From Arenibacter sp. P308M17 (GTDB taxonomy: Bacteria > Bacteroidota > Bacteroidia > Flavobacteriales > Flavobacteriaceae): a stretch of DNA of 64,000 nt. The position numbers and the translations under genes are program-made. The stretch is from positions 124,001 to 188,000 of the forward strand of contig NZ_QVON01000006.1 in the NCBI RefSeq assembly GCF_003426735.1, read 5' to 3'. Below are positions 16,741 to 59,025 of this stretch, one piece after another. The notes under the pieces are model-generated. The model saw only the letters and a list, made by a program, of their open reading frames with translations. It had not been told where the DNA came from and made no database searches. Positions within the stretch are counted from its first letter, which is position 1. Each line of letters begins with the position of its first letter.

Positions 16741-17193
16741 GTGAAGGCGGTAAAGGTCACAGGATGGATTCTGTTGGTAGCGTTGGTGGGCATCCAGTTT
16801 ATGCCCACCGAACGCAATCAAAGCGATTTGATACCCAAAACGGATTTTATGGTCGTTAACGAGGTGCCAAAAAATATCGAGAGCATCATCAAAACCTCTT
16901 GTTATGACTGCCACAGCAATAATACCGACTATCCTTGGTACAATAAGGTGCAACCGGTGGCGTGGTACTTGGAAGACCATGTGGAGCATGGCAAGGAAGA
17001 ATTGAATTTTAGCGAATGGGACACCTATTCATCGCGAAGAAAGAATAGCAAACTAAAATCCATTATAAGCCAAATCGAGGATGATGAAATGCCCCTTACA
17101 TCGTACACGCTCATCCATAGAGACGCAAAACTTTCGGATACCGAAAAGAAAATCGTTTTGGATTGGGTGTCAAAACTAAAGGACAGTTTATAA
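16741..17193 (+). CDS. Haem-binding domain protein (single CxxCH c-type haem)
   Basis: A 150-residue protein with an N-terminal hydrophobic anchor (residues 6-20) and one c-type haem site CYDCH at 54-58, followed by NNTDYPWYNKVQPVAW, the pattern of the haem-binding domain family PF14376. The start is GTG directly after the previous TAA; the hydrophobic segment supports it. It probably faces the periplasm. Between two DUF3347 genes it may carry electrons for copper redox chemistry together with the multicopper oxidase; this is inference. Confidence 0.82.
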   Translation: MKAVKVTGWILLVALVGIQFMPTERNQSDLIPKTDFMVVNEVPKNIESIIKTSCYDCHSNNTDYPWYNKVQPVAWYLEDHVEHGKEELNFSEWDTYSSRRKNSKLKSIISQIEDDEMPLTSYTLIHRDAKLSDTEKKIVLDWVSKLKDSL

Positions 17194-17217: not shown

Positions 17218-17736
17218 ATGAAAAAAATAAATAATGGATTTGTGGTCATGTTGATGCTGACTATTTCTTTTGTTTCAGCACAAGATAAGATAAAGTTGAA
17301 CCATGACCATAGCAAAATGGAAATGAAGCAAACGCCTATTGAGTTCAGTAATGAGAATGTGGCCAATGCCTACGAACATTATGAACACGTAAAAAATGAT
17401 CTGGTCGGTTCAAATCCTGGAGATGCCCAAAAGGGTGCGGAGATGTTGAACGAAGCACTTGGTAAAGTTGAAGGTGCCGGTGCCGCTTTATCGGCATCCC
17501 AAAAGATAGCCGCTACGGATAATTTAAAGGTACAGCGAAAAGCATTTTCAGAATTGAGTACTAAAATGGAAGATATTTTAAGAGGAAAAATAACGGCGGG
17601 TAAACTGTATAAGGATTTTTGTCCCATGGCCTTGAACGGGGGCGCCTATTGGTTATCCTCTATCGAGGATATCCGTAATCCGTACTACGGCGCCCAAATG
17701 CTCAGCTGTGGAAAGGTTGCGGAAGTAATCCAATAA
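17218..17736 (+). CDS. DUF3347 periplasmic protein
   Basis: A 172-residue protein with a signal peptide (cleavage after FVSAQ near residue 22), a short His/Met stretch (NHDHSKMEMKQ), a helical middle and a closing DUF3347 signature FCPMALNGGAYW and NPYYGAQMLSCG. Compared with the copies in CusB and at 16111 the Asn-Asn-Asn-Lys segment is replaced by Leu-Asn-Gly, so it is a diverged paralogue. Likely a soluble copper-binding partner of the Cus system (inference from family and place). Confidence 0.82.
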   Translation: MKKINNGFVVMLMLTISFVSAQDKIKLNHDHSKMEMKQTPIEFSNENVANAYEHYEHVKNDLVGSNPGDAQKGAEMLNEALGKVEGAGAALSASQKIAATDNLKVQRKAFSELSTKMEDILRGKITAGKLYKDFCPMALNGGAYWLSSIEDIRNPYYGAQMLSCGKVAEVIQ

Positions 17737-17742
17737 TAAAAG

Positions 17743-17804
17743 CCTGTTATGGGAAGTAGCGATTTAGTTTGGTTGGTTAGTTGGTTAGCCCCTTCCCTTT
17801 CAGG
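17743..17804 (+). repeat. Hairpin element 1 with GTTA-rich loop
   Basis: Stem CCTG/CAGG (17743-17746 with 17801-17804) plus GGGAAG/CTTCCC (17751-17756 with 17792-17797), internal loops TTAT and TTT, and a 35-base loop rich in GGTT and GTTAGTT. Architecture and stem sequence match element 3 at 18513. A 40-codon ORF (ATG 17749, TAA 17871) overlaps it but looks accidental. No T tract follows, so it is not a standard terminator. Confidence 0.6.
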
Positions 17805-17882
17805 TAATATCCGGTTGGTGTTGGCCAAAGAATTGAAGGCCAATTTTAGTGGTCTTAAAAAAGAAGTCTAAGTAGAAAATAA

Positions 17883-18413
17883 ATGGAAGAATTAAGCCTC
17901 GGCATTTTCGTTGTACCCACTATAGCGTTGACTTTGGTCATTTTGGGTTATTTGTATTTTGCGAAACAGGTAACAGACATAGGGGAATATAGGAGGTTTG
18001 TGTTTGCAGTGGCAGTAACGTCCTTTATGTTGAATTTTATATGGGAGCTGGCGCAAGGCCCATTGTACGAAGGGTTCGAATATGATTTGAAACATATCTC
18101 CTTTTGCGCCTTGGCATCCGTCGCGGATATGTTGATGGTATTCATACTGCTTTTTGCCTTAGGACTAATTTATAAGGATGTGTATTGGATGCAAAATTGG
18201 GGTTCGAAAAGTATGTTGCTTTTGGTCCTTGTCGGATTTTTTGGGGCTATTCTAGCAGAGGTTTGGCATACCGCTAGGGGCGATTGGGCCTATGTTGATG
18301 CCATGCCACGATTGCCAGTAGCAGAAGTGGGGATTTCGCCCGTTCTTCAGTTTACGATATTACCATGGCTGATTTTTTTGATTTGCAAGAAGTTTATAAT
18401 GGAAAAAGTATAG
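17883..18413 (+). CDS. Uncharacterised multi-pass membrane protein
   Basis: 176 residues with five hydrophobic stretches (about 8-26, 38-56, 70-100, 112-130, 150-170). Conserved-looking motifs are NFIWELAQGPLYEG in TM2 and the polar stretch AEVWHTARGDWAYVDAMPRLP before the last helix, containing His, Arg and Asp that could form a membrane-embedded site. I have seen similar unnamed membrane proteins but know no function. It is bracketed by hairpin elements on both sides (17743 and 18425/18513), so its mRNA may be separately processed. Confidence 0.7.
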   Translation: MEELSLGIFVVPTIALTLVILGYLYFAKQVTDIGEYRRFVFAVAVTSFMLNFIWELAQGPLYEGFEYDLKHISFCALASVADMLMVFILLFALGLIYKDVYWMQNWGSKSMLLLVLVGFFGAILAEVWHTARGDWAYVDAMPRLPVAEVGISPVLQFTILPWLIFLICKKFIMEKV

Positions 18414-18424
18414 TAAGATATAGC

Positions 18425-18490
18425 TCTGGGTGGGCTTTGGGAGTGTTTTTTGTTTGGTTAATTATTTAGTGTTTCCCATTTCTGCCCAGA
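18425..18490 (+). repeat. Hairpin element 2 with GTTA-rich loop
   Basis: Stem TCTGGG/CCCAGA (18425-18430 with 18485-18490) plus TGGGA/TCCCA (18438-18442 with 18474-18478), with a loop containing GTTTGGTTAATTATTTAGTG. The stem sequence differs from elements 1 and 3 but the two-part stem and the loop type are kept. Confidence 0.5.
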
Positions 18491-18512
18491 CGATAGTGTT
18501 GAAGGAAAAAGT

Positions 18513-18573
18513 CCTGTTATGGGAAGGGAATATGTAGTTAATGATTAGTGTTTAATGCCCTTCCCTTGACAGG
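18513..18573 (+). repeat. Hairpin element 3 with GTTA-rich loop
   Basis: Stem CCTGT/ACAGG (18513-18517 with 18569-18573) plus GGGAAGGG/CCCTTCCC (18521-18528 with 18558-18565), three-base internal loops, and loop TAGTTAATGATTAGTGTTTA. The strongest of the set with 13 Watson-Crick pairs. It lies 16 bases before the small Cys-rich protein gene at 18589. Confidence 0.65.
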
Positions 18574-18588
18574 CACAATAAAAATGTA

Positions 18589-18744
18589 ATGGAAGACTGT
18601 TGTAAAGATTGTGGAAAGCATAAGAAACGTAAGTCTAAGCTTAAGAAATGGTTTAGTTATTCGCTTTATATCATCATTGGATCGATAGTCAACTGGACAC
18701 TGGTCATACAGATCTATAACAATTATTTATTAAAACAGGAATAG
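18589..18744 (+). CDS. Small Cys/Lys-rich membrane protein (51 residues)
   Basis: Begins MEDCCKDCGKHKKRK, with a CCxxC metal-binding-like cluster and His, followed by a basic stretch and one membrane helix (residues 24-42) containing SYSLYIIIGSIVNWTLV. Stop TAG at 18742-18744, 19 bases ahead of the methyltransferase gene. Not a family I can name. The N-terminal thiol cluster on the cytoplasmic side suggests metal sensing or binding; this is inference. Real coding is supported by composition, strand and tight spacing. Confidence 0.6.
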   Translation: MEDCCKDCGKHKKRKSKLKKWFSYSLYIIIGSIVNWTLVIQIYNNYLLKQE

Positions 18745-37379: not shown

Positions 37380-37449
37380 TTTTGAGTCCGAGTTTGTTTA
37401 TCGTCTTAATTAGTTAGTTAAAAATTAGAAAAACAGGCTCGGTTCAAAA
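37380..37449 (+). repeat. Hairpin element 4 with GTTA-rich loop
   Basis: Three-part stem TTTTGA/TCAAAA (37380-37385 with 37444-37449), CCGAG/CTCGG (37388-37392 with 37438-37442) and TGTTT/AAACA (37395-37399 with 37431-37435), loop containing TTAATTAGTTAGTTAA. Same plan as elements 1-3. It follows the adaptor stop by 18 bases and may terminate, process or protect the transcript. The rest of the gap to 37607 shows nothing recognisable. Confidence 0.6.
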
Positions 37450-37607
37450 TCGATTAAAAATTTAAAATATGAAATGAGCCACAACAATTTTGGATACCAA
37501 CCGAAATGTTGATTGGCGAAATCAGAGATTCACGAACACCTTTAAATAAAATAAAAACGATGTGAGTAATTACATATGACCATTAAAAAACAAATAAATA
37601 TCAACAG

Positions 37608-37946
37608 ATGAAAGAAATAAAAGCATTTATAAAACCGAACCGAATCCAAAGAGTCATTGAAGCACTTTCTGACAATGGATTTGAAAGTATGACCCTTTCA
37701 CAAGCAGAAGGCACGGGCGCATTCAAGGCAAAAGGTGCAAGACCGTCGCTAGATTTTCACGTAACAGATAGTCCTGTGGTAAAATTGGAATTGGTCTGTC
37801 AAAATGAGGAAGCCCAAGCGGCCATTGAAACAATTATAGCCAACGCCAAAACCGACGGGCCTGGAGATGGTATTATTTATATAGCAAATATTGAAGATGC
37901 CTTTCAGATTAAAACAGGAGATTCCTTAAAACGTTACGACCTGTAA
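37608..37946 (+). CDS. PII-like protein linked to the metal exporter
   Basis: 112 residues with the PII ferredoxin-like fold: MKEIKAFIKPNRIQRVIEAL start and the C-terminal nucleotide motif DGPGDGIIYIANIEDAF. The T-loop region (EGTGAFKAKGARPSLDFHV) lacks the Tyr that is uridylylated in GlnB. PII-like proteins beside CusA/CzcA pumps form a distinct group, likely to sense nucleotide or metal and to modulate transport. Seventeen bases before the first Fur-type gene. Confidence 0.82.
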   Translation: MKEIKAFIKPNRIQRVIEALSDNGFESMTLSQAEGTGAFKAKGARPSLDFHVTDSPVVKLELVCQNEEAQAAIETIIANAKTDGPGDGIIYIANIEDAFQIKTGDSLKRYDL

Positions 37947-59001: not shown

Positions 59002-59025
59002 AAACCCAACCATTGGGTTGGGTTT
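59002..59025 (+). terminator. Hairpin after the SpoU methyltransferase gene
   Basis: Perfect 10-bp stem AAACCCAACC/GGTTGGGTTT, loop ATTG. Followed at 59037-59060 by GTTTGAGTTAGTTAGTTTAA, the same GTTA-type motif found in the loops of the hairpin elements at 17743, 18425, 18513 and 37380. Lies between convergent genes. Confidence 0.65.

Follow-up and report, generated by a model that had tools for sequence, protein, structure and literature searches.

The locus studied here raises the question of whether several long-looped hairpins in a copper-resistance region of Arenibacter sp. P308M17 belong to one family, and what such hairpins could do between genes. The window, by which we mean the whole stretch of 64,000 nt that was analysed, carries copper and heavy-metal genes across approximately 4–46 kb. 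Pfam was run on eight window proteins, and the other window genes were named by eye from their translations. The eight proteins gave two DUF3347 proteins, a haem-binding domain, a CusB-type HlyD protein, a P-II protein and a DUF4440-like protein just below the cut-off, and two ORFs were without a match. A sequence-only reading had placed one hairpin family at four sites of the window, named E1 to E4 here (Table 1). In this study, we found that E1, E2 and E3 are RNA hairpins that lie between the cistrons of a copper-resistance operon, whereas E4 did not hold up as a member of their family.

Table 1. Features of the window around the hairpins (window coordinates).
Feature	Position	Strand	Basis or remark
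Haem-binding-domain gene, same operon as E1–E3	16741..17193	+	Pfam PF14376
DUF3347 gene, stop codon touching E1	17218..17736	+	Pfam PF11827
E1, R1/R3-family hairpin between the DUF3347 gene and ORF 17883-18413; loop with GGTTGGTTAGTTGGTTAG	17736..17810	+	
176-aa ORF between E1 and E2	17883..18413	+	Without Pfam or NCBIfam match
E2, diverged family hairpin, first of a tandem pair with E3	18418..18496	+	cmsearch
E3, best member	18506..18579	+	cmsearch; blastn islands in family genomes
51-aa Cys-rich ORF (MEDCCKDCGK...)	18589..18744	+	Start 10 nt past E3 end
E4, hairpin 3' of the cusB-like gene	37380..37449	+	z -6.4; A7; R3 11.0 bits

E1 starts at the last base of the DUF3347 stop codon, E2 lies 3' of ORF 17883-18413, and E3 comes next. 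The two-part stems and the long G/U-rich loops that had been described are real in all three. E3, for example, has the ends AAGTCCTG...CAGGCACAA, a conserved unpaired C and the loop TTAATGATTAGTGTTTA. It had also been said that these hairpins are not Rho-independent terminators, and we agree, since no T run lies 3' of the three stems on the operon strand; the 3' flanks on that strand, read from the sequence, are CACAATAAAA for E3, TAATATCC for E1 and ACGATAG for E2. The terminator scan covers loops of 3–8 only and is blind to loops of the E1–E3 type. Our own generic hairpin scan of the window (3 sites against 0–1 in random controls) was uninformative because its score limit missed E1–E3. The folding z-scores of E3, E1 and E2 were -4.9, -0.8 and -1.5, respectively; because these values are uneven, single-sequence folding alone does not settle E1 and E2 and is convincing for E3 and E4 only.

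The scores of E3 and E1 were 81.2 bits (E 3e-17) and 49.2 bits (E 1.8e-9) with model R3 on the window, and 87.4 bits (E 1.4e-22) and 53.9 bits with model R1 in cmsearch, and they are high by construction because both hairpins are training rows of R1 and R3. E2 is not a training row. It scored 21.8 bits (E 0.0085) with R3, whose training rows include the hairpin taken to be its orthologue, which adjoins E3 in Maribacter 4G9 (L043; 36.6 bits), and 12.5 bits (E 0.4) with R1, which is trained without E2 or this orthologue. Copies like E1 were found at L013, L014/L042, L043 and L044. The independent evidence consists of the matches in genomes outside the training set of R1.

The R3 score of E4 (E 3.5) is at noise level. 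Its hairpin is conserved after the same cusB-like 3' end in nine relatives (A7). Its score places it outside the family, and it may be an element of its own. A similar motif had been reported after the hairpin at 59002; that hairpin folds with the motif outside it, and no model matched there. The proposed loop word GTTAGTTNGTTAG (at most 1 mismatch) was not enriched in the genome, with 11 matches against 32 in the backwards-read control, and the informative loop words were instead UGGUU, GGUUAGU and TTRATGGTTAGTGTT. A stretch of about 160 nt upstream of the P-II-like gene (37454-37614) was observed to be a dispersed repeat, with 12 matches in the own genome (one of them the locus itself), 5–12 matches in 14 of 17 other genomes of the genus and 1 in three. 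The last bases of the window copy are AAATAAATATCAACAGATGA, at the start codon of the P-II gene; a similar stretch is present in L082, and the repeat looks like a leader repeat or a small mobile element.

When 17218-18740 was compared by blastn with 397 Flavobacteriaceae genomes, about two dozen short islands coincided with E3, six genomes (own included) had longer operon matches, and some matches were coding-only. The neighbours in 22 loci around the E3-type matches were copper-operon genes. Model R1 was built from A1, a MAFFT alignment of 26 copies. Searched over the same genomes, as the sequence-only reading had proposed for such a model, it matched 73 of 397 at E<=0.05, in 60 of 237 genera, and further hits with kept pairing were found. 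The best R1 match was below 1e-3 in 62 of the 73 genomes; the 11 with a best E above 1e-3 were kept out of the strong set, and some of these are cross-matches to the stand-alone RNA described below. The E-values of such short-calibrated models are rough. Among 247 genomes drawn from the phylum, which include an unstated number from the own family, R1 matched six; each of these belongs to the same family as the window, and the own genome is among them. The R1 matches in the own genome were two strong ones (E3 and E1), one of 30.8 bits, one shadow of E3 and two below significance. The 30.8-bit copy lies on the same contig, upstream of an ORF that resembles an outer-membrane efflux gene by eye, and folds unlike the family.

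Alignment A3 contains the hits fitted to R1 from 68 of 91 loci (95 rows, 85 distinct) and omits near-identical loci and weak-hit loci; shadows of palindromic stems on the opposite strand, 5 of 150 rows, were removed before counting. Copper-operon gene clusters adjoin 76 of the 85 distinct copies, and the strand of the copy agrees with that of the upstream gene in 84 and of the downstream gene in 79. Neighbours were clustered by BLASTP and labelled from the scanned window proteins or from representatives, some by eye. The upstream neighbour belonged to the DUF3347, haem-binding and ORF-176 clusters in 42, 20 and 9 of the 85 copies, respectively, and the downstream neighbours were mixed. Relatives of the 176-aa ORF occur in four genomes (Euzebyella saccharophila, two Maribacter and Allomuricauda profundi). 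The 51-aa ORF received no Pfam or NCBIfam name, and members of its cluster lie 3' of the element in 22 of the 85 copies. The hairpins also occur in arrays: L094 and L102 each have four units on one strand with starts about 70–110 nt apart, and L087 and L089 have four hairpins each, one of which scores better on the other strand. The stems of the array units differ, and their loops carry GGTTGGTT, GGTTAGT or GGTTAAT; in one unit type, GGTTAAT stands 5' of the hairpin.

The earlier observation that pairing is kept while the stems change was confirmed by compensatory changes in A1 and A3. In A1, whose structure was drawn by hand from its consensus, 90.6% of the pairing in 17 pairs is kept, 6 of the 17 pairs are changed on both sides, and double changes fill 12 cells against 5.6 in shuffled alignments; when the columns are slid by 1–3, pairing drops to 44–58%. 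In A3, double changes affect 14 of 15 pairs and fill 123 cells against 36 shuffled, and these counts lean towards the structure because A3 is fitted to its own model. The family ends are AAGUCCU...AGGCACAA. On the 3' side, one base stays unpaired where the main stem stops and two more pairs may follow; it is C in 75 of 85 copies, and the two additional pairs can be G-C in 64 and U-A in 66. The loop has a mean length of 27, contains 5.4% C and is mostly unpaired, and UGGUU occurs in 60 of the 85 loops, whereas shuffling the loops leaves a mean of 8. G-U/U-G cells in A3 number 76 and A-C/C-A cells 24, and such an excess shows selection on pairing in the RNA of the operon strand. Taken from the alignments, the hairpin forms in the operon-strand RNA with a stem that is free to change as long as pairing is kept, and the C-poor loop, with words such as UGGUUAGU, is under sequence constraint. 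The family matches and the kept pairing support the structured-RNA interpretation given earlier, and we believe that this is almost certainly a real structured RNA family; protein binding, proposed there as the alternative, is a candidate role.

The same loop was also found on another RNA. The first sign was three weak R1 matches, next to a CoA-binding gene and fabH or next to a receptor gene, in which an unrelated stem bears the same loop. In this second form, TTRATGGTTAGTGTT is the loop core of a hairpin with a terminator behind it, and the two together make up a putative small RNA. The 18-nt loop occurs without mismatch in 18 of 18 searched genomes of the genus to which the window belongs. 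In 17 of them the copy that was fetched has a CATTGAT-stem hairpin and then a terminator; in the eighteenth (G407) it is a copper-operon hairpin, one of two matches. The CATTGAT-stem hairpin faces fabH in L147 and L136, and ten genus loci align onward into the same flanking sequence. A model of this form, R2, was built from A5 (MAFFT; 98.5% paired, 5 of 25 pairs with double changes) and matched 192 of 397 family genomes at E<=0.01. Alignment A6 was made from 73 loci, which sample some of the 192 genomes; its 81 rows, 76 of them distinct, contain one shadow or more and a small number of second copies whose loops read GGTTGGTTGG. All 25 pairs are double-changed among its 76 distinct hits, with 327 cells against 73 shuffled, counts that again lean towards the structure because A6 is fitted to its own model. 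The loop positions UGGUUAGUGU are each kept in 70–75 of 76 hits, G-U cells exceed A-C cells in the first hairpin (83 against 12), and at the fabH locus the terminator helix of the putative small RNA covaries and has a T run behind it.

Among the 81 hits, the CoA_binding_2 cluster lies upstream of 54 and the fabH cluster downstream of 46, and the receptor cluster is upstream in 18 and downstream in 18. The composite order is CoA_binding_2 (read away), hairpin and terminator, a TonB-type receptor gene (OMP_b-brl_3), a second hairpin and terminator at the receptor stop codon, and then fabH facing or near. This full order is seen in L222, and likewise in L221 with one extra gene before fabH. In five genus loci the hairpin looks like an orphan because no receptor gene is adjacent. 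An ECF-type promoter pattern, GTAAC-N14-19-CGTC, lies upstream of 36 of 77 distinct sites, against a background of 0.005 per stretch; an exact match is absent at the receptor 3'-end copies and at the tested copies of the window's genus, among them the own copy at G000:C3:54758-54864. By eye, the stand-alone RNA and the TonB receptor gene behind it also share sites resembling GTAAC/TGTTAC...CGTCTA in L221 (1400-1860), L222 (1380-1830), L178 (1420-1815) and L201 (1455-1860), and the two may be under the control of a single ECF sigma factor. In Flavobacterium psychrophilum, an ECF motif with a CGT -10 box has been reported (PMC9723704). A relation to Rfp18 of that species (PMC9723704) was considered and is unsupported because G127 and G317 of genus g128, which we guess to be Flavobacterium for this comparison, have neither a match of the stand-alone RNA nor a loop-core match.

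The 15-nt loop core alone is found in 199 of 397 genomes, and the backwards-read control gave 23 sites. Among 30 loci fetched by the core only, 2 lie inside ORFs, 27 lie in gaps (25 with receptor, CoA or fabH genes, L268 in a copper operon and L288 in another gap) and each of these 27 has a predicted hairpin round the core, some of them weak. The last, L279 (1440-1540), is a possible new 3'-end site: the core starts 11 nt past the stop of a lipoprotein-like gene, within a weak stem. At most 1 mismatch to the stand-alone core was found in 24 of 85 operon loops and in none of 4,250 shuffled loops, and 53 of the 85 have at least 4 differences from the core or are too short for it. Both forms are present in 43 genomes, the operon form only in 19, the stand-alone form only in 149 and neither in 186, a moderate co-occurrence (odds ratio 2.8, p 4.7e-4, with kinship between genomes ignored). 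At least 12 enclosing pairs were found round the core at 23 of 30 core-only flavobacterial sites, at 29 of 94 viral sites among the matches listed and at 98 of 300 flank-shuffled sites, so the measure separates, but not cleanly.

Searches for known relatives were made in several collections. Rfam 15 gave two tRNAs only over the window, one miRNA match far under its threshold in 17700-18620 at E<=5, and none in L147, L155, L136 and L094 at E<=0.5. Plasmids had no match for E3 (E<=1e-5) or for the stand-alone RNA of L147 (E<=1e-2). The exact consensus pattern of the operon form was found in 0 viral contigs, and among the listed 15-nt loop matches in viral contigs no clear R2 match was seen (best E 0.061 in 80 of 120 stretches). 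Five of 15 same-order genomes from other families had loop matches at 2 mismatches (8 matches); five of these outside-family matches were fetched and, read without folding, looked unlike the hairpin. Among the titles and abstract openings listed for open-access full text under the terms used, none described the family, which is apparently uncatalogued. A leader peptide in the loop (ATG GTT AGT GTT) was dropped by eye because third positions hardly vary and the frame is lost in many operon copies. The usual RNA-binding partners CsrA (PF02599), Hfq (PF17209) and RRM_1 (PF00076) were rejected, as a Pfam search of the own genome (G000) gave 0 for each; controls were positive in 3 of 14 for CsrA, in 5 of 14 for Hfq, and in Bacteroides ihuae and Synechococcus elongatus for RRM_1.

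Unlike the loop, the stem can be exchanged for another, and we consider that the loop is very probably the recognised part and the stem its holder. Our best explanation is that E1–E3 and their relatives are cis-acting hairpins of one new family whose fixed loop is shown to a trans-acting factor, and we give this explanation as a whole a probability of roughly 45%. The stem would present the loop to the factor, most likely an RNA-binding protein as yet undescribed in these bacteria, although the chances that the partner is a protein are about even. The factor would set the stability or translation of the adjoining copper-resistance cistrons, and it could protect or mark their 3' ends. The terminated copy could act as a decoy that competes for the factor while its ECF sigma factor is active, a part of the proposal that we hold only tentatively.

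Several known systems resemble parts of this arrangement. Hairpins of the CsrB/RsmZ type, bound by CsrA/RsmE, have variable stems and the fixed loop word GGA, stand several in a row, and occur both in mRNAs and in free RNA. The family described here has the same variable stems, fixed loop word, hairpin rows and copies in mRNA and free RNA; unlike CsrB/RsmZ, its loop word is UGGUUAGU and CsrA was not found in the own genome. Its conserved loop words are UGGUU and GGUUAGU rather than GGA. The iron-responsive element arrays of transferrin-receptor mRNA serve metal homeostasis with a fixed loop and an unpaired C, and the likeness extends to a hairpin array in a metal-homeostasis mRNA, whereas loop and topology are different. 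Sigma-E-dependent small RNAs (RybB/MicA) are ECF-controlled and linked with outer-membrane protein genes, as is the putative ECF-controlled small RNA here; unlike in that system, no Hfq was found in the own genome. The FopS small RNAs and RbpB of Bacteroides thetaiotaomicron pair an RNA-binding protein with a multicopy RNA family, also in a Bacteroidota host; FopS is a single-stranded 5' stretch plus a terminator (PMC11697453), unlike our hairpins, and the own genome has no RRM_1 protein by Pfam search. RbpPg1 of Porphyromonas gingivalis is an RRM protein with which a metal-exporter transcript is enriched, and stem-loops may be among its targets (PMC12119571); in contrast, Pfam found no RRM protein here, and no common RNA motif was noted.

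Other explanations were weighed against a loop-reading factor. The one that survives best, which we still consider unlikely, is an antisense family whose members have one base-pairing seed, the loop, in common: through GGUU[AG]GU, the stand-alone RNA and released 3'-UTR copies would pair with mRNAs, and the operon copies would be extra sources or sponges. The promoter-like and terminator parts of the stand-alone form and the mostly unpaired, C-poor loop suit this idea, and a G-U pair lets GGUUAGU as well as GGUUGGU bind ACUAACC, as read from the sequence. Against it, the ten or more near-invariant positions exceed the needs of a short seed, and in the own genome the 18-nt loop (at most 2 mismatches, either strand) occurs only at E3 and the fabH-side copy, so that there is no long complementary target; a seed of 7–8 nt may exist.

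Somewhat less probable again are plain intercistronic hairpins for stabilisation or processing, as in REP/BIME elements or the puf operon, where the stem blocks 3'-5' exonucleases and the loop is irrelevant. REP/BIME and other intercistronic hairpins stand within operons and in arrays, and the family here is alike in its place between cistrons and at 3' ends, in arrays of up to four and in stems that covary freely. This idea leaves unexplained that the loop of the stand-alone RNA is better conserved than its stem and that the same loop sits on unrelated stems. Repeats of the REP/BIME type as such were rejected: many dispersed copies would be expected, and the own genome has only few R1 matches, the family being found in few copies, mostly in one operon type and with a conserved loop.

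A ligand-binding riboswitch or attenuator that senses copper or stress would fit the copper-gene context and the hairpin and terminator that, in 18 of 81 hits, precede the receptor gene; we regard it as improbable, as the operon copies follow a narrow gene set and precede diverse genes, and no terminator or competing hairpin was seen by eye beside E1–E3. A DNA element (an attC-like recombination site, a REP/IS200-type mobile hairpin or a cruciform) would account for hairpins that lie at gene junctions where the downstream gene varies. It is strongly disfavoured by the excess of G-U over A-C pairs, the few copies per genome in mostly one operon type, and the negative searches above of plasmids and, with the exact operon-form pattern, of viral contigs. 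By eye, the attC core GTTRRRY was not noticed.

Returning to the loop-reading factor, we tentatively propose a post-transcriptional regulon of Flavobacteriaceae resembling CsrA/CsrB, in which an RNA-binding factor reads the UGGUUAGUG loop on interchangeable stems, with sites known so far in copper-resistance operons, at a TonB receptor and in a decoy RNA driven by an ECF sigma factor. If this is true, the regulon would do the job of CsrA/CsrB in bacteria without CsrA, Hfq and RRM proteins. Little is known of control at the RNA level in Flavobacteriaceae, and the three usual RNA-binding regulators are absent from the own genome by Pfam search. Roughly half of the genomes sampled have this almost invariant loop, on a stem whose every pair has changed in some copy, and this makes it a strong handle for experiments, with a bait sequence, a stand-alone RNA that can be deleted, and expected read-outs in the copper-resistance operons and the TonB receptor. 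The question of which protein replaces CsrA or Hfq in these bacteria thus becomes directly testable.
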